DNA of 40,907 nucleotides from Dehalococcoidia bacterium (GTDB lineage Bacteria > Chloroflexota > Dehalococcoidia > DSTF01 > WHTK01), in the NCBI GenBank assembly GCA_035574915.1, contig DATLYJ010000053.1, forward strand, positions 1 through 40,907. Direction: 5' to 3'. The position numbers and the translations under genes were made by a program. Positions 2,511 to 24,983 of this stretch are shown here, piece after piece. The notes beneath the pieces are model-generated. The model worked only from the letters and a program-made list of their open reading frames with translations, did not search any database and was not told where the DNA came from. Each line of letters starts with the position of its first letter. The stretch's first letter is position 1.

Positions 2511-2817
2511 CGGACAGACGCGAGGTCACGGGCTCCGCCGGCCAACCCTGGTGAGTAGCAGGCGACGACTCGACATGAGCCCGCGCGTTCGCGGGCACGG
2601 CGGACGGCCCACCGCCTGGATGCTACGCGCCGTGTCACAGGGTGTCTGATTCGAGCGCGCGGAGCGCAGAGCACGCCTCGCGTGTCTGAAGAACCTCGCC
2701 GCCCGCGCATACGCGGCCGGAGCCGCTGGGTGGGAGGAGCGGACTTCGCGGCCGGCCGAAACGGCTGCCGCGAGCGTTCTGGCTGACAGGCTGACTAGGC
2801 GAGAGGCCGGCTAGCCG
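2511..2817. other. Intergenic region between hxlR-like gene and gyrB, no gene seen
   Basis: About 307 bases between convergent genes. Open frames here overlap the flanking genes and have no recognisable protein or ribosome site. The only structure of note is the GC-rich hairpin at 2745-2774. I see no RNA gene. Confidence 0.6.
2745..2774. terminator. GC-rich hairpin between convergent genes
   Basis: Stem CGCGGCCGGCCG (2747-2758), loop AAA, and CGGCTGCCGCG (2762-2772), with one bulged base. It sits 28 bases or more beyond the gyrB stop, between convergent transcripts, so it may end transcription from either side. There is no T-run, so it is not a classical intrinsic terminator. Confidence 0.35.
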
Positions 2818-4841
<2,024 letters not shown>

Positions 4842-4872
4842 AGGTCAAGGGGAGATGCCAGGGGCACACTGC

Positions 4873-4878
4873 ATTCTA
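4873..4878 (-). promoter_or_regulatory. Possible -10 box of gyrB
   Basis: TGC-TAGAAT on the complementary strand, an extended -10-like element. No convincing -35 box is seen upstream. It implies a leader of roughly 105 bases for gyrB. Confidence 0.35.
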
Positions 4879-4978
4879 GCACAAATTGATGTTCAGCGTA
4901 TACGCATGCCTTCGCAGACGAAAACGCCTGCAGCGTTGCCGGCCGATCTCTCTGCGGAAACATCCGGCTTCTCGCTGC

Positions 4979-4984
4979 TATATT
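4979..4984 (+). promoter_or_regulatory. -10 box adjacent to GTG start (leaderless)
   Basis: TATATT followed by only six bases and then the GTG start at 4991. Transcription would be expected to begin at or very near the start codon. No Shine-Dalgarno site is present. Confidence 0.5.
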
Positions 4985-4990
4985 CTCAAC

Positions 4991-5497
4991 GTGGGCCTTC
5001 TGCAAAAGCTCCGCAATTTCCTCCCTCTTGGCCGTCCCCTTATTCCGAGGGACCCGATCTCCTACCGGGCGATTGGCGTTGTCCGTAACCGTGTCTCCGA
5101 GTACAGGACCGCGGGCTGGGAGGATATCCGCTCCGACATCTTCCTGCGCGAAGATTTAGCGCCGGCCCTAGAAGGTATCGAGGGCTTCTCACACGTCATC
5201 GTGGTGTTCCATATGCACACGGTATCCGACGATGATCGTCGCCTGCTGACCCTGCCGCTCGCCGGCGAAAATGCCGGCGAAATTGGCCTTTTCGCGACCC
5301 GCATCGCGGTCCGGCCGAACGCTGTCGGCGTCAGCGCCGTGCCCGTGGTCTGGAGGCGAAAAAACGTCCTCCGCGTGCGCGGGCTGGACGCCCTCAACGG
5401 GACGCCCGTCCTCGACATCAAGCCTTACCTGCCGCCGTATGATTCCATCCCCGGCGCAACGCTACCGGCATGGGCGCAGCAGGCGATGCAGCGGTGA
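4991..5497 (+). CDS. TsaA/TrmO-like SAM-dependent RNA methyltransferase
   Basis: 168-residue protein of the TsaA/VirR/YaeB family. Characterised members (TrmO) N6-methylate t6A37 of tRNA-Thr with SAM. Visible family blocks: YRAIGVVRNRV at the start of the barrel, IEGFSHVIVVFHMH, FATRIAVRPNAVGVSAV (usually FATRSPHRPNPIGLS) and LDALNGTPVLDIKPYLP. The changes in the RxPHRPNPIG block mean the substrate may differ from tRNA-Thr. An ATG-opened frame begins at 4886, but the first 35 codons are not family-like; the GTG at 4991, six bases after TATATT, fits the family length. Its stop overlaps the next gene's GTG (GTGA, 5494-5497), implying translational coupling. Confidence 0.85.
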   Translation: MGLLQKLRNFLPLGRPLIPRDPISYRAIGVVRNRVSEYRTAGWEDIRSDIFLREDLAPALEGIEGFSHVIVVFHMHTVSDDDRRLLTLPLAGENAGEIGLFATRIAVRPNAVGVSAVPVVWRRKNVLRVRGLDALNGTPVLDIKPYLPPYDSIPGATLPAWAQQAMQR

Positions 5498-6228
5498 GCC
5501 CCGCCCGGCCGGTTAGGCCCCGGGCTTTCTCCCGTGGGCGCCCGGAGGCCCGGAAAGATGAGGCCAGCCTCCTCGCGGAGGTCTTCGAGCGCCTGGAGGC
5601 CCGATATGACCTTGACCGTTGGCACTGGCGTGAAGACACGCCGGCCTTCGATATCTGCGTTGGGGCGATCCTGGTCCAGCACACGGCCTGGTCGAACGTC
5701 GAGAAGGCCATCGAAGGGATGCGCGCCGCCGGCGTCTTTAGGCCGGAGAGCCTGCTCGCCCTCCCGGAGGACGATCTCGCCCCTCTCGTCCGGCCCGCCG
5801 GCATGCCGGCGACCAAGGCGCGGCGCCTCAAGGCGTTCTTGGCCCTCGCGGCCGGCTACGGGTCGCTGGAGCGGCTCCTGGCGCTGCCGGCTGACCGCCT
5901 CCGCGCAGCGCTGCTGGGGACGCATGGCATCGGGCCGGAGACCGCGGACGTGATCGTCCTCTACGCGTCGAAGCAGCTGGCGAAGGTACATGACGCCTAC
6001 ACCCAGCGCCTCATGCGCCGGCTCGGCGTCGGCCCGGAGCGCGACGGCTACGACGTCTGGGCACGCTGGCTAGCGGAACGGCTGCCGGCGGAGGTGCGCC
6101 TCTACCAGCGCTACCACGCCGCCATCGTCGTGCACTGCAAGGAGACCTGCCGGTCGCGCCCGAAGTGTGGGGAGTGTCCGCTGCTCGACCTCTGCGCCTA
6201 CGGGCGTGTCCAGGTGCTCCAGGCGTAG
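5494..6228 (+). CDS. Endonuclease III-like DNA glycosylase (HhH-GPD, [4Fe-4S])
   Basis: Base-excision-repair glycosylase of the HhH-GPD superfamily, about 244 residues. The helix-hairpin-helix is GTHGIGPETADVIVLYA and the catalytic Asp is in KVHDAYTQRL. The C-terminal iron-sulfur loop has Cys in CRSRPKCGECPLLDLC. In endonuclease III the hairpin reads GVGRKTA and its Lys makes the Schiff base; here that position is Glu (GPETA), as in the MagIII/'endonuclease III-related' branch (GKETAD). The protein is therefore probably a monofunctional glycosylase, perhaps for alkylated purines, rather than an AP lyase. The start is GTG 5494, overlapping the upstream stop by four bases; an ATG at 5470 is the alternative. 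Confidence 0.88.
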   Translation: MSPARPVRPRAFSRGRPEARKDEASLLAEVFERLEARYDLDRWHWREDTPAFDICVGAILVQHTAWSNVEKAIEGMRAAGVFRPESLLALPEDDLAPLVRPAGMPATKARRLKAFLALAAGYGSLERLLALPADRLRAALLGTHGIGPETADVIVLYASKQLAKVHDAYTQRLMRRLGVGPERDGYDVWARWLAERLPAEVRLYQRYHAAIVVHCKETCRSRPKCGECPLLDLCAYGRVQVLQA

Positions 6229-6299
6229 CCCCTCCGTTGAGGCCGCGACACGCCTCCTCCCCCGGCGTGCGGCCCTGTTCCCACGGCGGCTGCCGTCGC

Positions 6300-6305
6300 T
6301 AATCT
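6300..6305 (+). promoter_or_regulatory. -10 box close to the YchF-like start
   Basis: TAATCT nine bases before the ATG at 6315. The GGAG that touches the ATG is too close to act as a ribosome site. This suggests a leader of at most a few bases. Confidence 0.45.
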
Positions 6306-6314
6306 GTACCGGAG

Positions 6315-7397
<1,083 letters not shown>

Positions 7398-7493
7398 TCT
7401 TCAGCAAGGCTCCGGCGCCGCGCCCGCCTCATCCCCTCCCCGTCCGGTGGCGCCCGACTAGTCGCACGGCGCCTCTCCTGACAGAATGACGGC

Positions 7494-8045
7494 ATGGCAA
7501 GACTGCCCTACCTCAACCAGGAAGACCTCTCCGACGAGAACAAGCGCCTCCTGCAGCGCCCGGCGAACCTCTTCCGCCTCCTCGTGCACAGTCCGGAGGG
7601 TTTCCGGAACTTCTCCCGACTCGGCGGTTGGATCCGGAACGGCTCCACGCTCGACCCGCGCCTGCGCGAGCTGGCGATCCTGCAGGTCGGCTACCTGACC
7701 GACGCCGCATACGAGTGGACGCACCACATCAAGCTGGGCCGCGATGACTTCGGCGTCTCTGACGAAGACATCCGCGGCCTGGTGATGGAGACCCAGGGCG
7801 GCGGCTCGGCCCTGCCGCAGCTCGAGCGCCTGGTGCTGCGCGCGGCAAGGGAGATGACAGACGAGTTGCGGGTCTCAGATGAGGCTTTCGAGGGGTTGAA
7901 GCAGCATCTGTCGGACGAGCATATCGTCGACCTCTTCCTGACCATCGCCTACTACAACCTCGTCGTGCGGATGATCCACTCGCTGGACGTCGACCTCGAG
8001 CCCGAGTACGAGCGCATCCTCCAGGAGTTCCCGCTCGATGTCTGA
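7494..8045 (+). CDS. Carboxymuconolactone decarboxylase / AhpD-fold protein
   Basis: 183-residue all-helical protein of the CMD/AhpD superfamily. The core region RLRELAILQVGYLTDAAYEWTHHIKLGRDDFG is typical, with the Glu and His of YEWTHH that form the proton relay in the family. The paired redox Cys of AhpD-type peroxidase reductases (CxxC) are absent, so a thiol peroxidase role is unlikely and a decarboxylase- or lactonase-like role, or none known, remains. The stop overlaps the start of xdhC by eight bases, so the two are coupled. No ribosome site is seen; CAGAAT lies six bases before the ATG, a near match to the leaderless pattern in this window. Confidence 0.9.
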   Translation: MARLPYLNQEDLSDENKRLLQRPANLFRLLVHSPEGFRNFSRLGGWIRNGSTLDPRLRELAILQVGYLTDAAYEWTHHIKLGRDDFGVSDEDIRGLVMETQGGGSALPQLERLVLRAAREMTDELRVSDEAFEGLKQHLSDEHIVDLFLTIAYYNLVVRMIHSLDVDLEPEYERILQEFPLDV

Positions 8046-8898
8046 GCGCGGCGGCGCGAATGCCCTTATCGCCGTCGAGGTCTTGCGCGCCGCGCGCGAA
8101 GGGAACCCCGTTGCTGTCGCGACCATCATCGCGGCGCCGGAGGACGCGCGGCCAGGGGCCGGGGACAAGCTGCTGGTCCGCCAGGACGGCTCTACGCTGG
8201 GCCACTTCCCCCGCGGGCTGCAGGAGGCCGTCATCGAGGACGCGCGTGCCGCACTGACCGCCTTCCCGCGCATCGCGACCCAGTCCTTCTACTACAGGCC
8301 CGAAGGCGGGCGCATTCACCGCCTCGAAGCCAGAGGCGGCGCGGACGCGTATGAGGTGATGATCGAGGTCACCGAGGCTCCGGCCACGCTCCTCATCGTC
8401 GGCGGCGGGCACATCGGGCTCTCCCTGGCGACGATGGGCGCCCACCTCGGCTTCTCCGTCGCAGTAGTGGACGACCGCGAGATGTACGCCAACGCCGAGC
8501 GCTTCCCGATGGCGGACCGCGTGATGGCCGGAGACGTTGCCGCGCACCTCCGGGCCTTTCCCATCTCCTCGAACACCTACGTCGTGCTCGTGAGCCGCGG
8601 CCACAAGGTCGATGAGCTAGCCCTACGCGAGGTTGTCGGCCGGGGCGCCGCCTATGTCGGCATGATCGGGAGCAAGCGAAGAGTCTCGACGGTCCTGCGC
8701 CATCTGGCCGAGGAGGGCTACCCGGTCGCCGACCTCGAGCGGGTCTACACGCCCATCGGCCTCGACATCGGCGCAGAGACCCCCGAGGAGATCGCGGTGT
8801 CCATCCTGGCGGAGATCATCATGGTGCGCCGGGGCGGCAAGGGCGGTCAGATGCGAGAGGGCCGGCCGCCCATCAGGGCTGGAGCGCGGGCCAGCTAA
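8038..8898 (+). CDS. XdhC/CoxI-family molybdenum-enzyme maturation protein
   Basis: 286-residue XdhC-like accessory protein. XdhC binds and helps sulfurate molybdenum cofactor before insertion into xanthine-dehydrogenase-family enzymes. The N-terminal CoxI domain includes NPVAVATIIAAPEDARPGAGDKLLV and a Rossmann domain starts at ATLLIVGGGHIGLSLA. A conserved GAAYVGMIGSKRR block and IGLDIGAETPEEIAVSI follow, all typical. No molybdenum hydroxylase subunits lie in the window. The convergent downstream neighbour is a tungsten/molybdopterin aldehyde oxidoreductase, a different cofactor family that does not normally need XdhC, so the proximity may be coincidental. ATG 8038 lies inside the end of the CMD gene. 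Confidence 0.93.
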   Translation: MSERGGANALIAVEVLRAAREGNPVAVATIIAAPEDARPGAGDKLLVRQDGSTLGHFPRGLQEAVIEDARAALTAFPRIATQSFYYRPEGGRIHRLEARGGADAYEVMIEVTEAPATLLIVGGGHIGLSLATMGAHLGFSVAVVDDREMYANAERFPMADRVMAGDVAAHLRAFPISSNTYVVLVSRGHKVDELALREVVGRGAAYVGMIGSKRRVSTVLRHLAEEGYPVADLERVYTPIGLDIGAETPEEIAVSILAEIIMVRRGGKGGQMREGRPPIRAGARAS

Positions 8899-12993: not shown

Positions 12994-13827
12994 TCAGACC
13001 TCATAGGTCGCCCCTTCCCAGCCCGGCTTGAAGTCGAATGGGAGCTCCTGGCGCACCAGGTCCGCGCACAGGCGGTCCAGCATGTCATCCGAGTGGTCGG
13101 GGTCATGGTGAAAGCCGACCAGGCGCCTGACCTCGGCCGCGATCGCGAACTGGATGGCCTGGGTCATGGAGCTATGCCCCCAGCCGATGCGCGCCAGGTA
13201 CTCTTCGTCCGTGTACTGGGCATCGTGGATGAGGAGGTCGGCGCCGAGCGCCAGGGCGTAGCCTGAGATCCAGTCCGGCCGGCCCGGAAAGACGCGGGCG
13301 CCGAGCGCCGGCTCATGGTCCGGGATGTACGTGAGCGCCTTGCCAGCCTCCTCGATGCGGTAGCCGACACTCGACCCGGGGTGGCAGACCAGGTCGGCGC
13401 ACACCCGCAGGCCTTCGATCTCGAAAGGCTGGAGCGGTACGTCGTGCAGGGTGATGTCCGAAGGCAGCTCGCGCAGCGGGACGGGGAAGAGGGGCGGGGA
13501 CAAGTATCGCCCCAGGCGCATCCGCAGGTTCATCGTCGTCGATGGCGGACCCCAAATGTGGATCACCCGGCCGGGCTGAAACAGGGGCGCGAAGAACCCG
13601 AGGCCCTGGATGTGATCGACGTGAAGATGCGACAGCAGGATGTCGATGCGTCCCTCTTCCGAGGCCAGCGCCAGACCGAGGCGCCGTATGCCCGTCCCCG
13701 CATCGAGGACCAGGGTCGCGCCTCCCCGCGAACGCACCTCGACGCATGCCGTGTTGCCTCCGTAGCCAACGGTCTCCGGCCCCGGCGCCGCGAGCGAGCC
13801 CCGGGTGCCCCAGAGCGTGGCCTTCAT
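12994..13827 (-). CDS. Metallo-beta-lactamase-fold hydrolase
   Basis: 277-residue MBL-fold protein of the RNase Z/phosphodiesterase-like group. It starts MKATLWGTRGSLAAPGP, where the GTRGS strand is typical of this group. The zinc motif is LLSHLHVDHIQG (HxHxDH), further ligands are probably in VCHPGSS, PDHEPAL and LIHDAQYTDEEY, and a late His is in GFHHDPDH. It may be a phosphodiesterase or a regulatory MBL protein. ATG 13827 overlaps the stop of the PAS gene (ATGA), so the two are translationally coupled; an open frame extends upstream to 14049 but that part lies inside the PAS gene in another frame. The coupling suggests a PAS-sensed hydrolase module. Confidence 0.9.
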   Translation of the reverse strand: MKATLWGTRGSLAAPGPETVGYGGNTACVEVRSRGGATLVLDAGTGIRRLGLALASEEGRIDILLSHLHVDHIQGLGFFAPLFQPGRVIHIWGPPSTTMNLRMRLGRYLSPPLFPVPLRELPSDITLHDVPLQPFEIEGLRVCADLVCHPGSSVGYRIEEAGKALTYIPDHEPALGARVFPGRPDWISGYALALGADLLIHDAQYTDEEYLARIGWGHSSMTQAIQFAIAAEVRRLVGFHHDPDHSDDMLDRLCADLVRQELPFDFKPGWEGATYEV

Positions 13828-14243
13828 GGTTTGCTCTCCCACAGAAGCGCCACCGCGCCCAGGTGGCGGCCGCCCTGGCCTTCGATCGGGAAGGCAGTGA
13901 CCTCGATGCGCCGCTTGACGCCGTCGAGGCCTGTGATGTTCATGTGGCGGTGGGCTGGCTGGCGCTTGGTCAGCGCGATCATCAGCGGGAGTTCTTCCGG
14001 GGGCAGGGGTTTGCCCTCGTCGTCGGTCTGTTCCCAGATCGTCGACCACTCCTCGGCCGTGAGTTCGCCGTGCTCCTCATAGCGGTGGCCGAGCACGGCC
14101 TCGGCCGGCTCGTTGTAGTAGAGGAGGTTCCCGCCCGGGTCGACGAGGAACACAGGCATGGCGAGATAGCTCGCCAGTTGCCTGGTGAGGATGATCTCGA
14201 CCGCCTTCTGCGGCGGCTTCTCTCCGGCGCGCTCTCCGGCCAT
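13824..14243 (-). CDS. Stand-alone PAS-domain protein
   Basis: About 139 residues, a single PAS fold: YLAMPVFLVDPGGNLLYYNEPAEAVLG at the N-terminus (PAS core), and MNITGLDGVKRRIEVTAFPIEGQGG...VALLWE at the C-terminus (PAC-like strands). No output domain and no transmembrane segment. The ligand is unknown. Start M at 14243 is chosen because the preceding 29 codons are not PAS-like; there is no good ribosome site. The four-base ATGA overlap with the downstream MBL-fold gene argues that the two proteins work together. Confidence 0.8.
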   Translation of the reverse strand: MAGERAGEKPPQKAVEIILTRQLASYLAMPVFLVDPGGNLLYYNEPAEAVLGHRYEEHGELTAEEWSTIWEQTDDEGKPLPPEELPLMIALTKRQPAHRHMNITGLDGVKRRIEVTAFPIEGQGGRHLGAVALLWESKP

Positions 14244-14396
14244 ACGAGTCGTCCGCTCACTATTGGCGGGCGCCGCTCCCCTGTCAATAAGGCTGCTGGC
14301 CCCCGGCGGCGAGACCGAAACCAGACGCAACTGCCAGGTGCAGATCTCTAGAAGTCGTGAAGAGGTGGGCGGCTTGCGTCACCTGACGCGCGGGAC

Positions 14397-15515
14397 CTAG
14401 CCCAGGGCGTCCTTTACCTTGCTCAGGATGCCCTTCGGCTCGCTCGGCGCCCCGCCGTCCAGCGTCGCGGCGAGCTTGCGCAGTAGGTCTTTCTGCTGGG
14501 GTGTCAGCTTCTTCGGCGTGTTGACCTGTACGTGCACCAGCAGGTCGCCGCGGCCGCCGCCGCGGAGGTGAGGAATGCCCTTGCCCCGCAGGCGAATGAC
14601 CTCACCGCTCTGGGTACCGGGCTCCAGCTTGATCTTGTGCGTGCCGTCCAGGGTCGGGATTTCGATTTCGTCACCCAGCGCCGCCTGCGCGAAGTTGACA
14701 TTGAGGGCTACTACGACATCGTCCTCGACTCGCTCGAACACCGGGTGCGGCTCGACGTTGAGCACCACGTAGGCGTTGCCCCTGGGGCCGCCGTAGGAGC
14801 CGAGTTCGCCCTCGTTCGTCAGCCTGATCTGCGACCCTGTGTCCACCCCAGCGGGTACCTTGACCTCGATGGTCCGCGAGACGCGCTCCCTGCCGGAGCC
14901 GCGGCAGTTCGTGCAGGGCGTCGGGATAATGAGGCCGTCTCCGCGGCAGCGGTCGCAGGAGGTGACGTTGATGAACTGGCCGAAGACGCTGCGCTGGACG
15001 CGGCGCACTTCGCCGGAGCCATCGCACGTCGGGCAGCGCTGTGGTTCCGTCCCCGGTTCAGCGCGCAAGCCGTTGCAGCGGGAGCACAGCTCCGTCCGGT
15101 TTATCGTCACCTGCTTGGTGGTGCCGAACGCCGCCTCCTCGAACGTAAGGTCCAGCCGCACCTGGATGTCGGCGCCGCGGCGCGGCGTGCGCCGCCGCGT
15201 CTGGGTCGCGCCGAAGAAGGCATCGAATATGTCGCCGAAGCCGCCAAAGGGCCCGAAGCCCTCGAAGCCGCGGGCCCCGAAACCGCCGTTTACGCCAGCA
15301 TGGCCGAACCGGTCGTATGCGGCCCGCTTCTCGCTGTCCGACAGGACTTCGTAAGCCTCGTTGATTTCCTTGAAGCGCTCTGCCGCGCCCTCTTCCGCGT
15401 TGCGGTCCGGGTGGTACTGCATGGCCAGCCGGCGGAACGCGCGCTTGATCTCGTCCGCGCTTGCGTTACGCGGCACGCCGAGGGTCTCGTAGTAATCAGC
15501 TTTCTGAGTAGCCAT
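14397..15515 (-). CDS. dnaJ: Chaperone protein DnaJ
   Basis: Hsp40 co-chaperone that delivers substrates to DnaK and stimulates its ATPase. Full type I architecture over 372 residues. J domain (about 7-70) with the HPD motif in MQYHPDRN. Gly/Phe-rich linker ([19 protein letters not shown]). Four zinc-finger CxxCxGxG repeats (CSRCNGLR slightly degenerate, [24 protein letters not shown]). C-terminal substrate-binding beta domains end at about 340. The ATG at 15515 begins [13 protein letters not shown]; the TTG at 15518 just before it is less likely. There is no ribosome site, but TACAAT lies nine bases upstream. dnaK and grpE are not adjacent. Confidence 0.98.
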
Positions 15516-15524
15516 CAACCATTC

Positions 15525-15530
15525 ATTGTA
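15525..15530 (-). promoter_or_regulatory. -10 box close to the dnaJ start
   Basis: TACAAT on the complementary strand, nine bases before the dnaJ ATG, with no Shine-Dalgarno site between. It matches the leaderless-type arrangement seen at other genes here. No CIRCE-type inverted repeat is seen. Confidence 0.45.
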
Positions 15531-15619
15531 CCGGCGCTGGCAGAGTTCGGGCAGGCGGGCCGCGACCTCAATTTCGGCGGCTGTGACGCCTACGTTAGAT
15601 GTTCGTTAGTCCGGCAACA

Positions 15620-15648
15620 TTGGATTGATAGCAATCCTGGCGTATCCT
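15620..15648 (+). promoter_or_regulatory. Sigma-70-type promoter of the secreted-protein gene
   Basis: TTGGAT (15620-15625), a 17-base spacer, TATCCT (15643-15648). It precedes a leader of about 30 bases containing AGGAGG (15671-15676) seven bases before the ATG at 15684. Confidence 0.5.
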
Positions 15649-15683
15649 GCGTGTGCGAAATGTCTTGCACAGGAGGTCGGGCA

Positions 15684-16517
15684 ATGCGTCGCCTCTTCGG
15701 ACTGGTCGCCGCTTTCACAGCCATCGCTGCGGTCGTCGCCCTCCGGCCCGGCGCCGAGAGGGCGGCGGTCGCTGTGCTTCAGACGAGCACACCTACCAAC
15801 ACGCCGCTTAGCACCGATACGCCGGTCAGCACGAACACGCCCACGGTCACAGCGACGGTACCCACCGCGACGCCCAGCGCGACGCCCACTTCGACGCCTG
15901 TCGCGCCCCCCGGGGGCCCGGAGCTGGGATTCCCCACCAGCCAGTGTGTTGGCGGGACCGTGCTCAACCCGGCATCGGCGAACGTTACGTTCACCTGGAC
16001 CGGTCCGACCAACGTTTCCACGGTCTACCTGGACCTGAGCCTGTTTGACAACACCTTCGCGGACGGGACCTACATCACCGTCGTCCTGCCGCCTGGCACG
16101 ACCCAGTACACCTGGAGCGGCATTCAGCCGGGCGTCGCGCATCACTGGCGCGTGACGGGCCTGGGGCTGAACGGCGACTGGGTCCAGTCAGCGTTCGGCC
16201 GCTTCACTCCCTGCGGCACGCAGAGACTCCTGAACATCCAGTACACGTGCACGGGCGCCGGCCGCGCCAGCGTCACCTTCCGCTGGGCGCCGGCCTCGTC
16301 GCCGGGCTTCTTCCAGTTCCTGGACCTCAGCCTGTTCAACAACGGCTTCGCGCCTGGCACCTTCCTGGGCGCGGGTCCGATGGTGCCGAACGCCCAGGGG
16401 CTGGTCTGGCCGGGCATCCTGGCCAACACCGTCCACTACTTCAGGGTGAACACCTTCTCGGTATTTGGCTGGGGGCCAAGTCAGACGGGTTCGTTCTTCG
16501 CCCAGTGCCCCTTCTAG
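15684..16517 (+). CDS. Secreted protein with Thr-Pro linker and two Fn3-like repeats
   Basis: 277-residue predicted exported protein. Signal peptide MRRLFGLVAAFTAIAAVVAL, then a low-complexity linker of Thr/Pro/Ser pairs (TPTNTPLSTDTPVSTNTPT...) of the sort common on extracellular Chloroflexota proteins. Two tandem repeats of about 90-100 residues follow. Each has a YLDLSLFDNTFADGT / FLDLSLFNNGFAPGT block and a W-x-G-I...H-(W/Y)-(R/F)RV block, and ends in a Cys-containing strand (GRFTPC / GSFFAQC). They look like fibronectin-III-like beta sandwiches. Function unknown, possibly adhesion or ligand binding outside the cell. The strong AGGAGG and promoter fix the start; the open frame extends far upstream but only as antisense to dnaJ. 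Confidence 0.8.
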   Translation: MRRLFGLVAAFTAIAAVVALRPGAERAAVAVLQTSTPTNTPLSTDTPVSTNTPTVTATVPTATPSATPTSTPVAPPGGPELGFPTSQCVGGTVLNPASANVTFTWTGPTNVSTVYLDLSLFDNTFADGTYITVVLPPGTTQYTWSGIQPGVAHHWRVTGLGLNGDWVQSAFGRFTPCGTQRLLNIQYTCTGAGRASVTFRWAPASSPGFFQFLDLSLFNNGFAPGTFLGAGPMVPNAQGLVWPGILANTVHYFRVNTFSVFGWGPSQTGSFFAQCPF

Positions 16518-16616: not shown

Positions 16617-17846
16617 CTAAGCCCTTGCCGGCATGTCCAGGCCCAGGACCCGGCGCAGTCCCGGCGCGATTTCCTCCGGCGTGCGGGTGATCGTGGCCTC
16701 GCGGAGACGCTCGCAGTAGTCCTCCACCTGCTTCCGGCGCAGCTCGTCCAGCTTACGCTTGCCCGCGGCCGGCGAGTCGTCCAGCAGGAGGATGAGGGCC
16801 TCGTTTTGAGGCGTACCATTGCGGATGTCCGACGCAAGCTGGAGCTCGCCGCGGAGCAACCACGTCATCACCGTGGAGCGCTTCTGGTGCTGCGTCTGCA
16901 GGTACCACTTCAGGTGGTCGAGCCCGTAGCGGATGTGCCGCCTGACGTCTTGAGCAACGTAGGCATACATCTTGCGCTCGGCTTCGTTGCGGGCAAGGGA
17001 CAGGCCAGCGCGCTCGAGCAGGCTGAGGAAGAAGCTGGAGCGGACCGTGATGTAGGTGATCATCTCCGTGAACTTCATCGCGGAGAAGATCGCCCGGTGC
17101 ATGGCCCCGGGCGCCTGGTAGCCCAGGCCCCCGCCGTTCGCAAGCGCCCGCTTGCGGAACGTCTCGGCGTGACGGGCGTAATCGAAGACCTGCGTCCCGA
17201 GGTAGAGCTTGACCTCATGGAAACCGTAGCTGATGCGCTCCAGCCAGCCGGCGATGACCTCGCAGCCGATGAGCGCGTCCTCCGCCCAGTGAGTCATGAG
17301 CTGGCAGATCGACTGCTCGATGTGGTCGGGCAGCGGCTCCATGGTCGACCAGGAGATGTCGTTCGCGGACGTCCAGCGCTCGGCGATCGCGTCCTCGTAC
17401 AATTCGCGGCAGGACTCCGCCCAGACCTCGGCCTTGTCATAGATGGTGTAGCTGGCGAGGATACCGGTCTGTGGCGGCGGATAGGCGCCGCGGGGCAGGT
17501 CGGTCTCGATGGGCCAGCGGTCGGGGACGAAGCCGTAGGCGCCCACCTCGACATCGGCGAGCCGCAGGCCCTTCGTTCCGGGCTTGAGGCGCGGCAAGCG
17601 GTCCGTCGGCACCTTCGCCCAGGACATATCGAGGGCCGGGATGCCGCCGAGCAGGCGGTAGTTCGTGAAGCGCTCGTGCGCCGCCTCCGGCCCGATGCCC
17701 GAACGGATGGAGCGCTCGATGAAGCCGGCATTGACGCCGAGCGCCAGGCCTTCCTTCACGATGTCGAGCGGCCAGCCATGCTCCGCCGCCGCCCGCGCCA
17801 ACGACTCCGGGACTTCCACCTCTGTTTTCGTCTCAGCCTGGGTCAT
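16617..17846 (-). CDS. Ferritin-like (R2-type) paralogue lacking diiron carboxylates
   Basis: 409-residue helical protein clearly homologous to the gene at 18787-19857 (shared WAES...LYE, QSICQL, FRKRALANGGGL, RNEAER). In that paralogue the diiron ligands are E137, E169/H172, E215 and E245/H248. Here the aligned positions are A191, Y223/H226 (DYARH), S271 and V301/H304 (DVRRH): both His remain but all four Glu are gone. It has an extra N-terminal region of about 60 residues. It is therefore probably a structural or regulatory partner rather than an oxidase, as the non-catalytic subunits of PaaA/PaaC or multicomponent monooxygenases are. The ATG at 17846 has GGAGG five bases upstream. It is the third minus-strand gene after the paralogue and the transposase. 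Confidence 0.8.
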   Translation of the reverse strand: MTQAETKTEVEVPESLARAAAEHGWPLDIVKEGLALGVNAGFIERSIRSGIGPEAAHERFTNYRLLGGIPALDMSWAKVPTDRLPRLKPGTKGLRLADVEVGAYGFVPDRWPIETDLPRGAYPPPQTGILASYTIYDKAEVWAESCRELYEDAIAERWTSANDISWSTMEPLPDHIEQSICQLMTHWAEDALIGCEVIAGWLERISYGFHEVKLYLGTQVFDYARHAETFRKRALANGGGLGYQAPGAMHRAIFSAMKFTEMITYITVRSSFFLSLLERAGLSLARNEAERKMYAYVAQDVRRHIRYGLDHLKWYLQTQHQKRSTVMTWLLRGELQLASDIRNGTPQNEALILLLDDSPAAGKRKLDELRRKQVEDYCERLREATITRTPEEIAPGLRRVLGLDMPARA

Positions 17847-17952
17847 CGCGCTCCTCCCTCACTGCCTGTAAACTCTGCTGACCTGAGTCGCACGGCGATG
17901 GACAGACGCCGAACCTTCATGCGTGCGCTATCGAATCGCGGCAGACTTCCCC

Positions 17953-17977
17953 GGGCGCAGCATTGCCGCGCCCCTAC
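17953..17977 (-). repeat. REP palindrome, copy A
   Basis: REP element with the GTAG head on the complementary strand: GTAGGGGCGCGGC-N3-GCTGCGCCC. The nine-base-pair stem has one G.T wobble where copies B and C have A-T. It lies between the RAYT gene and the downstream ferritin-like gene, in its upstream region. Confidence 0.85.
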
Positions 17978-18039
17978 ACAGCGACGCCAGGCCCGCGCCG
18001 ACGCCGCAGTGCTGGCTGCCAGATGACCTCCCAATATAC

Positions 18040-18669
18040 TCACTTTTCTTCACGTCCAGGCACCCATCGCTCGATCAGGGCTCGCCGTCTCCTTTTGCGC
18101 TCCCGCTGCCCGACGTAGGGGCGCAGCACTGCTGCGCCCTGGGGCCTCTCAACCCAGGACCACGCCTTCAGGTATTCCGCACTCTCGTCCCTTTCGGGAT
18201 TCTCCGGATCGTAGCGCCAGTTGGCCGGGTTATTCGCAATGTACTCGCGAACGAGGTCGAGATCGCGATGATCCGTGACAATGCGGTCGTAGTAGTGTCG
18301 CTGCCAGATCGACATGGAAAGGCTGGCTTGCGCGCGAAGCTGCCTTGCAGATGCGGCCTTGAACGAACGGACGACCGCCGAGAGCGAACCCGGAAGCACC
18401 CGGCCCGGAATCGGGGTCCCATCCGGCCCGTGGTCAAGGAGGTGAAGGATGCCATGGATGTGGTTTGGCATGACGACGAAGGCGTCGAGTTGCACATGAG
18501 GAAAGTGGCTCGGGATTGCAGCCCAGCATGCCTCCACGGTTCCGTGGACCTGAGCACCAAGAAGGACCGGGCGGCGACCTTCCGTGCAGATGGTCACGAA
18601 GTATGCGCCTGGTGTCCGGTAGTCGTATCCGCGCAGGCGGAGAGAGTTACGTCGTCTGGTCAATGTCAT
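18040..18669 (-). mobile_element. REP-associated tyrosine transposase (RAYT, Y1/HUH type)
   Basis: About 209-residue single-strand endonuclease of the IS200/IS605 TnpA-related RAYT family, which acts on REP palindromes and is usually single-copy and domesticated. It starts MTLTRRRNSLRLRGYDY and has the AYFVTICTEGR strand, the HUH metal motif in MPNHIHGIL and the catalytic Tyr in WQRHYYDRIV, followed by NNPANWRYD. REP copies flank it, C just upstream and A downstream, and copy B lies inside its 3' coding part. The frame opens further upstream (to 18771), but that part reads through REP copy C. It sits between the two ferritin-like paralogues, all on the same strand. Confidence 0.9.
18115..18139 (+). 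repeat. REP palindrome, copy B (inside the RAYT reading frame)
   Basis: GTAGGGGCGCAGC-N3-GCTGCGCCC with a perfect nine-base-pair stem. Its orientation is opposite to copies A and C. It lies inside the 3' end of the RAYT gene and encodes the C-terminal residues QGAAVLRPY on the complementary strand. Confidence 0.85.
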
Positions 18670-18691
18670 GTGGTGATCGTCCGGGGCGCCC

Positions 18692-18716
18692 GGGCGCAGC
18701 ATTGCTGCGCCCCTAC
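18692..18716 (-). repeat. REP palindrome, copy C
   Basis: GTAGGGGCGCAGC-N3-GCTGCGCCC on the complementary strand, perfect nine-base-pair stem, ending 22 bases before the RAYT start codon. With copy B it makes an inverted pair, as in bacterial interspersed mosaic elements. Confidence 0.85.
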
Positions 18717-18786
18717 ACCTACACCGCAACGCCGGTCGACGGAGGGCGGCGGCACCGTGCCGGTCCCGCATGCCCTCGACGCTTGC

Positions 18787-19857
18787 CTAGGCGTCTAGAG
18801 GGTCGCCGGCGAGGAAGGCGGCACGGCGCTTCTCCATGTCATCAGCCAGGTCGGCAAGGCCACAGACGCGCAGGCGCTGCGTCAGCTCCCGGAACTGCTT
18901 CTGCCGCGCCGCCAGCAGCATCATGTAGCCCTCGTCGATGTTCTTGCGGCCTTTGGCGAACAGGATCGCCAGCGCCTCGGAGTTCGTGCCTCCGATGGCG
19001 ATCCCGCCGTTGCCCTGGTTGGCGTTGCGGCCTTCGAGGTAACCGCGGATCTCGTCGTGGCGCCAGGGTTGCGTCTCCAGGAGATGCTTGACATGCATGA
19101 CGCCGAAGGCCACATGCCGGCTCTCGTCCTGGGCGGCGAGGCGAAAGATGCGTTTCTCGGCCTCGTTGTTGGCGATGAGCTCGCCCATGCGGAACACGCT
19201 CTGCACCGCCCCCTCGCCGCCTATGTGCAACGTCGTGGTCATCTCGACCATGTCGGCGTCGTAGAGGATGCCGATCGCGCCGCCGGAGCCCTGGAGCAGG
19301 CCGGCGCCGTTGGCCAGCGCCCGCTTGCGGAAGACGTCCAGGTGCCGGGCCTCGTCCATGATCTGGGAGGCAAGGAAGAGCTTCGTCTCGTAATGGTCGT
19401 TGCTGATGTTCTTGAGCCATCGCCCGGGCACATCGCCGGCGATGAACTCGACCTGGTTGAGGAAAGTGCAGAGCTGGCACATCGCCAGCTCGACGTCATC
19501 GTCCAGTTCGGTCAACTCTTCCCAGGGGATGTCGGTGGCGGAGGACCACTGCCTGGCCTGGGCCTCTTCGTAGAGGAGCATCACGGACTCCGCCCAGGAC
19601 TGGGACATCTCGTTCCAGCGCACTCCGATCCTGCGCGCGTTGGGCAGGGGCGCCGCGCCCCGCAGACGCATGTTCCAGTTGTTGGTCTCCGCGGGGATCT
19701 CGCCGTAGGAGCCCTTTTCGACGTCTTCCAGCGTCAGGCCGCGCCGGCCGGGCCGGGCATACATGCCCTGCTCCGTCGGCGGGTTCAGCCAGGACAGGTC
19801 TAACTGGACATCCGGCTCCTTGCGCAGCTCCTCGAGCACTTTCTCGCTAACGGGCAT
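18787..19857 (-). CDS. Ferritin-like diiron protein (R2/oxygenase superfamily)
   Basis: 356-residue helical protein with a complete carboxylate-bridged diiron signature: E137 (QVEFIAG), E169 and H172 (DEARH), E215 (GGEGAVQ), E245 and H248 (DESRH). The spacings of 32 and 30 between the paired ligands are close to those of ribonucleotide reductase R2 and related oxidases. It lacks recognisable R2 radical-transfer motifs, so an oxygenase, desaturase or N-oxygenase-like activity is more likely than nucleotide reduction; the substrate is unknown. Start ATG 19857 (MPVSEKVLEE) has GGGAGG seven bases upstream; the frame extends upstream to 19947 but without family similarity. Its metal-free paralogue lies two genes downstream. 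Confidence 0.85.
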   Translation of the reverse strand: MPVSEKVLEELRKEPDVQLDLSWLNPPTEQGMYARPGRRGLTLEDVEKGSYGEIPAETNNWNMRLRGAAPLPNARRIGVRWNEMSQSWAESVMLLYEEAQARQWSSATDIPWEELTELDDDVELAMCQLCTFLNQVEFIAGDVPGRWLKNISNDHYETKLFLASQIMDEARHLDVFRKRALANGAGLLQGSGGAIGILYDADMVEMTTTLHIGGEGAVQSVFRMGELIANNEAEKRIFRLAAQDESRHVAFGVMHVKHLLETQPWRHDEIRGYLEGRNANQGNGGIAIGGTNSEALAILFAKGRKNIDEGYMMLLAARQKQFRELTQRLRVCGLADLADDMEKRRAAFLAGDPLDA

Positions 19858-22009: not shown

Positions 22010-22519
22010 TCAGGCGACCTGGAACCTCGAGTTTCGCCCGACCGCCTCCATAGCCTCGTACAGCCGGTCGAACTCGGCGGCCGTCATCGTGCGGTCGAGC
22101 AGCGGCAGGTAGAGTTCCTCCTCCTTGGCGAAGTGCGCCTTCACCAGGGCGTAGAGGCCGTACAGCACCCTCCGGGCCTCGGTCCGTACGTTCCTGGGCG
22201 GCTCTTCGCCGTCCGCGAGTCCGGCCCTGAGGACGCCGAGCTCGTTCGCCAGCGTGCCCACCTCGACGTGGTCACGCGTCATGGTGTCTGTGGCGTGCTC
22301 GGACCCGAGGGCGCGCGCGACGGCCGGATAAAGCACGCGGTCTTCGGCGCGGGCATGGGGGATGAGATGGTTCTCCAGGAAGAGGTAGGCGTCCTCCAGG
22401 GCATCCCGTAGCTCGTCTGGCGGTGCCGTGTCGATTTCGTCAGCAACGGTCCTCAGCTTCTCGATCTCGGGCAGGAGATGGGCGTGCTCGTCGCGAAGTT
22501 TCTGGGTAGGCAGGGTCAT
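22010..22519 (-). CDS. Hemerythrin HHE-domain protein
   Basis: 169-residue four-helix non-haem iron protein. Ligand candidates appear in order: His in RDEHAHLLPEI, NHLIPHARAEDRVLYP (HxxxE), TRDHVEV, and AHFAKEEELYLPLL (HxxxE). This is a complete hemerythrin cation-binding pattern. Such proteins bind O2, sense oxygen or NO, or repair iron-sulfur centres. The frame opens at 22546, but the ATG at 22519 has a GGAGGAGG tract five bases upstream and matches the family start, so it is preferred. Confidence 0.9.
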   Translation of the reverse strand: MTLPTQKLRDEHAHLLPEIEKLRTVADEIDTAPPDELRDALEDAYLFLENHLIPHARAEDRVLYPAVARALGSEHATDTMTRDHVEVGTLANELGVLRAGLADGEEPPRNVRTEARRVLYGLYALVKAHFAKEEELYLPLLDRTMTAAEFDRLYEAMEAVGRNSRFQVA

Positions 22520-22677
22520 AAGCGCCTCCTCCTCCGCTCTCTTCACCAGAGCCTAAGGCCGGCGCCGGCGCTTTCGAAGGGCCATCAGGCGCGGCCCTTG
22601 ACTGCCGAACGGCAGGTAGGAATTGTCTGGTCGGACGGCAGGAGGATGACGCGGAGGCTAGCGTACCCTGGCGGGCG

Positions 22678-23578: not shown

Positions 23579-24841
23579 TCATGCCTCCGCCGTCTCGCGT
23601 GCGCGGAATTCGCGCGGCGCGACCATCTTCTCTTTCGGCAGTGGCTTCGGAGACCAGTGGTCTTCGTAGCCCTTCCAGATGCTGCGGAGGTTCGGGATGA
23701 CCTTGCGCGCGAAAAGCTCCGAGCTGTAGGCGCACTTGTCCACGGGCATGTCGCCGATGTGCATCAAGGCGACGATGTGCCCGACCTTCAGGCGCTTCGC
23801 CAGGTTCTCCATTTGCTCCGAAACGGAGTCCGGGCTGCCGGCGATGATGAAGCCCTGGTCGATGAGCTCCCGCCACGAGAGCTTCAGCGCCACCGCCGAG
23901 CCGCTGGCGCCCGGTCCGCCGCCGACCTGGGCCTGGAAGCCGGCGCGGATCGTGGCCTCCGTGCGATAGCCCGGCGCGTCCGCGAAACCCGGGTAGACGT
24001 GCAGGCAGCGCTCGAAGAAATAGCGCACGTGCGACTCGTACAGTTCCTGGGCCTCGGCGTCCGAATCGGCGACGACGATCTGCTGGGCGAAGGCCCCCTG
24101 ATAGGGGTTGAAGTCCTTGCCCAGGGCCTCCACGCGCTGCCAGAAGCCCTCCATGAGCTGTTGCCCGCGCAGATAGCCGCTGAAGCTGAGGTAGCTGTAG
24201 TTGTAACCCCTCTCCGCGCAGAAATCCCAGGTCTCAATCGAACCGCCGCCGGGGATCCAGATCGGTGGGTGCGGCTTCTGGATCGGCTTCGGCCACGTGT
24301 TGACGTAGCGCAGCTTGTAGTGCTTGCCGTTCCAGGCGAAGACGTCCGGGTCGGCCCAAGCCCGCAGGATCAGGTCGTGCGCTTCCTGATACTTCTCCCG
24401 CAACGTCGCCGGATTCGCGCCGAACGCATAGTTGTCGTCCATCGACGTCCCGACTGGGAAACCCGATACGAGGCGGCCGCCGGAGATGACGTCGAGCATG
24501 GCCATCTCCTCGGCTACGCGCGTCGGCGGGTTGTAGAGCGCGATGGACTGGCCGAGGAGCAGTATCGTGACGTCTTGAGTGCGCCGCGCCAGGGTCGCCG
24601 CCATCAGCGCCGGAGAGGGCATCATGCCGTAGGCGTTCTGGTGGTGCTCGTTCACCCCGACACCGTCGTAGCCCATCTCCGCTGCCTGCTCGAGCAGGTC
24701 AAGGTAGTCGTTGTAGACCTTGTGGCCGCGGACGGGGTCGTAAAGCCGCGAGTCGACGTCCACCCAGACGCTGCGATGCTTCTCGCGGAAGTCGTCGGGC
24801 AGATACGGCCAGGGCATGAGGTTGAAGAAGTGGAATTTCAT
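23579..24841 (-). CDS. LLM-class flavin-dependent oxidoreductase (luciferase-like)
   Basis: 420-residue TIM-barrel protein of the bacterial luciferase-like monooxygenase/F420-dependent group. It has GVNEHHQNAYGMMPSPALMAA (substrate and flavin pocket), LLLGQSIALYNPPTRVAEEMAMLDVISGGRL, and IPGGGSIETWDFCAERGY. It resembles the larger flavin monooxygenase subunits and alkanal monooxygenases of metagenomic Chloroflexota and Actinomycetota; the true substrate is unknown, and FMNH2 or F420H2 cannot be distinguished by eye. The ATG at 24841 (MKFHFFNLMPW) has GAGG eight bases upstream; an upstream ATG at 24961 adds a non-family extension. Confidence 0.92.
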   Translation of the reverse strand: MKFHFFNLMPWPYLPDDFREKHRSVWVDVDSRLYDPVRGHKVYNDYLDLLEQAAEMGYDGVGVNEHHQNAYGMMPSPALMAATLARRTQDVTILLLGQSIALYNPPTRVAEEMAMLDVISGGRLVSGFPVGTSMDDNYAFGANPATLREKYQEAHDLILRAWADPDVFAWNGKHYKLRYVNTWPKPIQKPHPPIWIPGGGSIETWDFCAERGYNYSYLSFSGYLRGQQLMEGFWQRVEALGKDFNPYQGAFAQQIVVADSDAEAQELYESHVRYFFERCLHVYPGFADAPGYRTEATIRAGFQAQVGGGPGASGSAVALKLSWRELIDQGFIIAGSPDSVSEQMENLAKRLKVGHIVALMHIGDMPVDKCAYSSELFARKVIPNLRSIWKGYEDHWSPKPLPKEKMVAPREFRARETAEA

Positions 24842-24894
24842 CTTGCAGTCCTCGGGTCTCGCTGCGGTGGCGTGCGGGCGGCAGGGCTGCGGAG

Positions 24895-24900
24895 AGTATA
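24895..24900 (-). promoter_or_regulatory. -10 box of the luciferase-like gene (leftward)
   Basis: TATACT on the complementary strand, 53 bases before the ATG at 24841, with GAGG closer to the start. No clear -35 box. Confidence 0.35.
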
Positions 24901-24954
24901 GCTTAGCCGCCGCCACAGTCACCCTTCTCCGCGACAACGCCAGCCTCCCCGGGC

Positions 24955-24983
24955 TGGGCACTCATGAAAGGAGCCGATAATCT
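24955..24983 (+). promoter_or_regulatory. Promoter of the second luciferase-like gene (rightward)
   Basis: TGGGCA (24955-24960), a 17-base spacer, TAATCT (24978-24983), then a short leader with GGAGG (24999-25003) before the ATG at 25008. Confidence 0.4.

Follow-up and report, generated by a model that had tools for sequence, protein, structure and literature searches.

Why would a bacterium keep, beside a ferritin-like protein with a full set of metal ligands, a paralogue in which these ligands have been replaced? The question is raised by two genes in the window, the 40,907-nucleotide stretch of a Dehalococcoidia genome analyzed here, which an earlier note had read as a catalytic subunit and its metal-free partner.

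An intact and a degenerate R2-like protein

The features of the locus are as follows.

18787–19857, minus strand: active partner P0002 (356 aa), an R2-like diiron-carboxylate protein with E137, E169xxH172, E215, E245xxH248 and H211
16617–17846, minus strand: degenerate partner P0001 (409 aa), with A191, Y223/H226, S271 and V301/H304 at the former ligand positions
17652–17825, minus strand: N-terminal helical domain of P0001, about residues 8–65, the confident part of its structure model (pLDDT 73–91)
18040–18771, minus strand: REP-associated tyrosine (Y1) transposase, not part of the system (PF01797, E=6e-8; NF047646, E=4e-18)
17950–17979, 18116–18145 and 18689–18718, no strand assigned: three copies of a REP-like palindromic 30-nt repeat around the transposase

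P0001 and P0002 are encoded by intact open reading frames at these coordinates and are paralogues, with 36% identity over 322 aa (BLASTP, E=3e-57). The ligand set that the earlier note had assigned to P0002 is right to the residue, and so is its reading of P0001, save that S271 reads S270 in another alignment, a one-residue alignment ambiguity. Neither protein reached the cut-off of any family in searches of Pfam and NCBIfam. The N-terminal helical domain of P0001 is absent from P0002 and has no match in Pfam; about half of the degenerate relatives have such a domain, and the matches of relatives to P0001 begin at residue ~8.

The partners in the window are not direct neighbors, since the transposase and the three REP-like repeats, which had been missed, lie between them; the resulting gap of 940 nt is an outlier among the 46 adjacent pairs described below. 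A second pair in the same genome, on contig C155, consists of direct neighbors (locus L005, active gene at 13576–14655 and degenerate gene at 14784–16043). Its degenerate copy has S, Y/Q, A and L/H at the ligand positions, with H226 changed to Q and one His thus gone.

Ligand states and descent of the two classes

Relatives of P0001 are present in 37 of 119 related genomes and in 18 of 400 genomes sampled across the phylum, and profile searches detected relatives of the family in 115 of the 393 sampled genomes of the class. The family spans many families and two classes; tblastn searches of plasmids with P0001 and P0002 found no relatives, and none were found on viral contigs.

Ligand states were surveyed in 147 sufficiently complete relatives from 40 genomes. 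Exactly EEHEEH is present in 85 of these proteins, the remaining 62 are degenerate, and there are zero intermediates, a division that is not due to chance. The former site varies by lineage among the degenerate proteins (NAHDKH, QQHALH, GAKKSH, ASMNRA), and in family f5 the replacements can extend to every one of the six ligand positions (ASMNRA). The statement that both His are kept is correct for P0001 but does not extend to the family, in which 34 of the 62 degenerate copies retain both, 27 retain one and 1 retains none. Likewise, all four carboxylates are lost in P0001, as had been proposed, but some lineages have D at 215 together with K at 245, and these residues could form a salt bridge replacing the metals.

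In a tree calculated with the ligand columns excluded, 61 degenerate proteins form one branch and 70 active proteins its sister branch. The two sister clades are supported in a smaller set analyzed under a mixture model, again with the ligand columns excluded (UFBoot/SH-aLRT 100/99 and 100/98). Judged by these alignments, the predicted loss of the metal site in the degenerate sister is ancient and widespread. A distant pair in genome G046 (locus L149, active gene at 2632–3810, degenerate gene at 3749–5074, and 2632–5564 overall with the third gene described below) falls outside this pattern: its degenerate copy, which has a long branch, lies outside the main degenerate branch, and forced grouping with it is rejected (AU p=0.002). 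The G046 pair therefore appears, on this phylogenetic placement, to represent a separate, second origin of the active/inactive arrangement.

For 45 pairs, the distances among degenerate proteins mirror those among their partners (Mantel r = 0.92; highest value in permutations, 0.13), which points to physical coupling. Degenerate proteins evolve faster, the mean pair distance being 0.60 compared with 0.45 for the active proteins. Because synonymous sites are saturated across all pairs, dN/dS was restricted to the four closest pairs, where it is 0.07–0.25 for the degenerate gene and 0.04–0.13 for its partner, indicating purifying selection on the degenerate gene.

Conserved residues around the former metal site

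The residues that are invariant in active proteins and lost in degenerate ones are the four carboxylates, their neighbors V136, F138, A140 and G216, and H211, the last being invariant in all 70 active proteins of the paired clade. The degenerate clade has invariant residues of its own (W111, I154, Y207-G208, E228, G242 and Y307), of which E228 is an Asp-to-Glu swap outside the ligand positions, and both clades have W76, R119, Y150, W158, W166, R231-R233, D300, R303 and H311 in common. Changed columns are thus concentrated on the metal ligands and the residues next to them, and much of the surrounding shell is shared. The earlier note had asked whether other carboxylates occupy the site of the second protein. 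The acidic residues conserved in degenerate proteins are E151, E177, E211, E261, D300 and E334 (shared with the active paralogue), and no other conserved set of carboxylates was found, which leaves the proposed pair unrefuted.

Arrangement of the pair and its neighbors

Adjacent pairs were collected from 46 loci of the source class and a second class. The active gene lies upstream in all 46, none being reversed, and the median gap is 74 nt; family f5 contributes 7 further adjacent active/degenerate pairs. Genomic surveys, which the earlier note had named as a possible source of refutation, thus show the two genes as neighbors in fixed order. Together with the strict ligand dichotomy, this lends good support, at the level of sequence, to the claim of an active/inactive pair.

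Sixteen degenerate genes are unpaired. For 15 of them, the same genome also has an active gene that is itself unpaired (or split, in G010), and the lone exception is in a fragmented genome (G008). In G010, the active gene of one pair consists of two overlapping open reading frames (L117, 75–1144), reflecting a frameshift or an assembly error. Several active genes are solitary, for example in G047, G103 and G117; a partner is thus not a general requirement.

The genes flanking the pairs vary between loci and indicate no single substrate. In the window, a hemerythrin-domain protein (PF01814) is encoded at 22010–22546, a few genes from the pair, and a luciferase-like monooxygenase (PF00296) at 23579–24961; genes of the latter type are found beside the module in L048, L079 and L080 as well, and enoyl-CoA hydratase genes are among the scattered neighbors. 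In the second pair of the window genome (L005, 12941–14655), the beginning of the active gene overlaps with the end of a TetR regulator gene, and TetR genes are situated ahead of the pair in L055, L057 and L068 too. A DtxR-type iron-dependent repressor is encoded upstream of the pair in L058 (checked with Pfam), L060 and L063, which belong to three genomes of family f36. Clustering and inspection of neighbors, some of which were also searched for domains, revealed no recurrent reductase or PaaB-like gene.

A third gene of about 145 codons

The earlier note had spoken of a two-component system, a description that is too narrow, as a third gene encoding a protein of ~145 aa (alignment A1) belongs in many of the loci. 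It occurs 48 times in the 119 related genomes, and in 31 of these cases it immediately follows a gene of the family. In L079, for example, the three genes lie at 5842–6918, 6965–8203 and 8240–8677. Third gene and family are both present in 34 genomes, one of them only in 3 and 1, and neither in 81 (Fisher p=4e-25, with kinship ignored). The sole copy in the window genome is located on contig C111 near the contig end and not beside the window pair.

The 31 cases include the G046 pair and four deep active genes without a degenerate partner. This distribution suggests that the ancestral module consisted of an active enzyme and the ~145-aa protein, and that the degenerate copy joined later. No Pfam family was assigned to the third protein; SCP2 (PF02036) remained below cut-off, with 1 of 15 members matched at E=0.18. 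A single hhalign comparison with SCP2 profiles gave P=3.6e-4 and a probability of 37%, and an SCP2-like nature of the protein is accordingly suggestive only.

Proposed module and alternative explanations

Taken as a whole, the observations make it probable that the pair belongs to a conserved R2-like dimetal oxygenase module, in which an intact subunit and a non-catalytic degenerate subunit form a heteromer, often with a third protein. The intact subunit, a predicted oxygenase, would bind an Fe/Fe or Mn/Fe site and activate O2. The degenerate subunit may serve stability, a substrate channel or the docking of an electron donor, as in PaaC/PaaA or Rnr4/Rnr2. Less certainly, a hydrophobic substrate might be presented by the ~145-aa protein, acting as a carrier or effector of SCP2-like type, and electrons might be supplied by general cellular donors, as no reductase gene was seen beside the loci. 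A lipid-type substrate is suggested by R2lox precedents, the possible SCP2 link and the scattered luciferase-like, enoyl-CoA hydratase and TetR neighbors. It is conceivable, and put forward here with some reserve, that the module is an undescribed three-component R2-type oxygenase of Chloroflexota, with a catalytic subunit, a ligand-less pseudo-subunit and a lipid-carrier-like protein, and that an ancestral enzyme-plus-carrier module gave rise to such a pair on two or more occasions.

The active protein might instead be a metal-storage, peroxidase or radical-generating protein for which the partner is a scaffold. R2-type scaffolds do also perform radical chemistry; however, the position of the radical Tyr in R2 (H+4 of the first ExxH) is Phe in 70 of 70 active proteins of the paired clade, and a single-site R2-type architecture with oxidase relatives further makes this explanation unlikely. 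By this residue the active protein is predicted to be outside classes Ia and Ib, and the same residue is not decisive for class Ic, in which Phe also occupies the position.

Alternatively, the degenerate protein could act alone, for example by binding a ligand or carrying a radical without metal, and be merely co-transcribed with the diiron enzyme. Its own invariant residues (among them W111, Y207-G208, G242 and Y307), the extra N-terminal domain in many lineages and the distance of some degenerate copies from any active gene are compatible with such a role, and class Ie R2 proteins are metal-free. The former site nevertheless lacks a conserved Tyr or Lys pattern, its replacements are lineage-specific, and the evolution of the protein mirrors that of the partner, so we regard independent action as quite improbable. 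A metal-free radical protein of the class Ie type was rejected as a general explanation, the former site having no common residues.

Very little speaks for an unusual subfamily of PaaABCE or of the soluble methane/toluene monooxygenases. The active/inactive architecture is the same, and the best Foldseek matches of the P0001 model are PaaC/PaaA (E about 0.008). The models of P0001 and P0002 are of low confidence (pLDDT 52–55) and were built with only 7–8 sequences, and because of this weakness the PaaC matches are not counted as kinship. The PaaA, PaaC and methane monooxygenase (MMO) families gave no Pfam match at E<=1, whereas the active proteins match R2lox, VlmB and R2 profiles. Furthermore, the partners are 36% identical, compared with 17% for PaaA and PaaC, the catalytic and structural ferritin-like subunits of their complex (PMC4498308), and no PaaB-like or reductase gene recurs next to the pair. 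Finally, the idea that the degenerate copy is a decaying, functionless duplicate is scarcely credible: its catalytic ligands are gone and it evolves faster than its partner, yet it belongs to one ancient clade that has been kept intact throughout two classes and many families, has invariant residues of its own and, in close pairs, a dN/dS far lower than 1, and for the family at large these features rule out pseudogene decay.

The heteromeric module thus remains the preferred explanation. With dozens of co-evolving pairs, active relatives without a twin and an apparent second origin, it makes the retention of a dead twin testable by comparison and knock-out, and it is common in one class (the 115 genomes above) of organisms about whose aerobic chemistry little is known.

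Comparison with known systems

The best profile matches of the active family are VlmB, R2lox and R2, and the fold matches of the P0002 model (pLDDT 52) are the same proteins. In comparisons with PDB profiles, the alignment of active proteins (A2) matches VlmB, R2lox and R2, and alignment A3 has no match below E=0.2. By profile and modeled fold, the active protein is R2lox/VlmB/R2-like and would not be a PaaA or MMO subunit. The comparison with PaaA/PaaC and the monooxygenases drawn in the earlier note is therefore apt as architecture and does not hold as kinship.

We know of no inactive partner of R2lox. Among curated profiles, R2lox (NF006200; PDB codes 4hr0 and 3ee4) matches the active protein best, at E about 4e-9 for all 25 members tested; it is also the best fold match, and the two have the E/ExxH/E/ExxH ligand order in common. 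Identity with R2lox is rejected, as the score of 36.2 bits is far below the cut-off of 194 and the cross-link residues are absent. The cross-link of the Geobacillus enzyme joins Val and Tyr (V72 and Y162; PMC10867098), and the corresponding positions (E69+3 and E167-5) are Ala in 70 of 70 and Met, Leu or Val in 70 of 70 active proteins. R2lox precedents include proteins that bind fatty acids (PMC6399176) and one for which alkane degradation is reported (PMC10867098).

The azoxy synthase VlmB and its Kitasatospora homologue (PDB codes 8wvr and 6d9f) provide the top PDB profile match of the active family (E=7e-5). They are 20–21% identical to the active protein in the fold match, and the alignment with the family is limited to the ExxH stretches. 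To our knowledge, VlmB has neither an inactive paralogue nor a ~145-aa third gene. P0002 has no Pfam match to AurF (PF11583), which deep relatives match weakly and below cut-off, and its score against R2 (PF00268) is 15 bits, below the gathering cut-off of 33.6.

Active/inactive heteromers recur across diiron enzymes. The earlier note, whose author knew of no such pair in the literature, overlooks Rnr2/Rnr4 of yeast, a heterodimer on the R2 scaffold whose Rnr4 subunit is without key diiron ligands (PMC3824934). Both systems comprise an R2-scaffold pair with one member that has lost diiron ligands, as judged here by sequence; Rnr2/Rnr4, however, are radical generators working with R1, whereas the active proteins studied here lack the radical Tyr and have a different accessory gene. 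An open-access literature search of incomplete coverage found no such pair as the present one, and the word undescribed is used within that limit. The layout of PaaA/PaaC and of the MMO hydroxylase, a catalytic and a metal-free ferritin-like subunit of like fold, is matched here as far as residues can tell. For the third gene, the ubiquinone biosynthesis of E. coli offers a parallel, although the hydroxylases served there by UbiJ are flavin enzymes. UbiJ is an SCP2-domain accessory protein in a multi-enzyme complex (PMC9499169), and a small lipid-binding accessory of the SCP2 type is what the suggestive SCP2 link would make of the ~145-aa protein.
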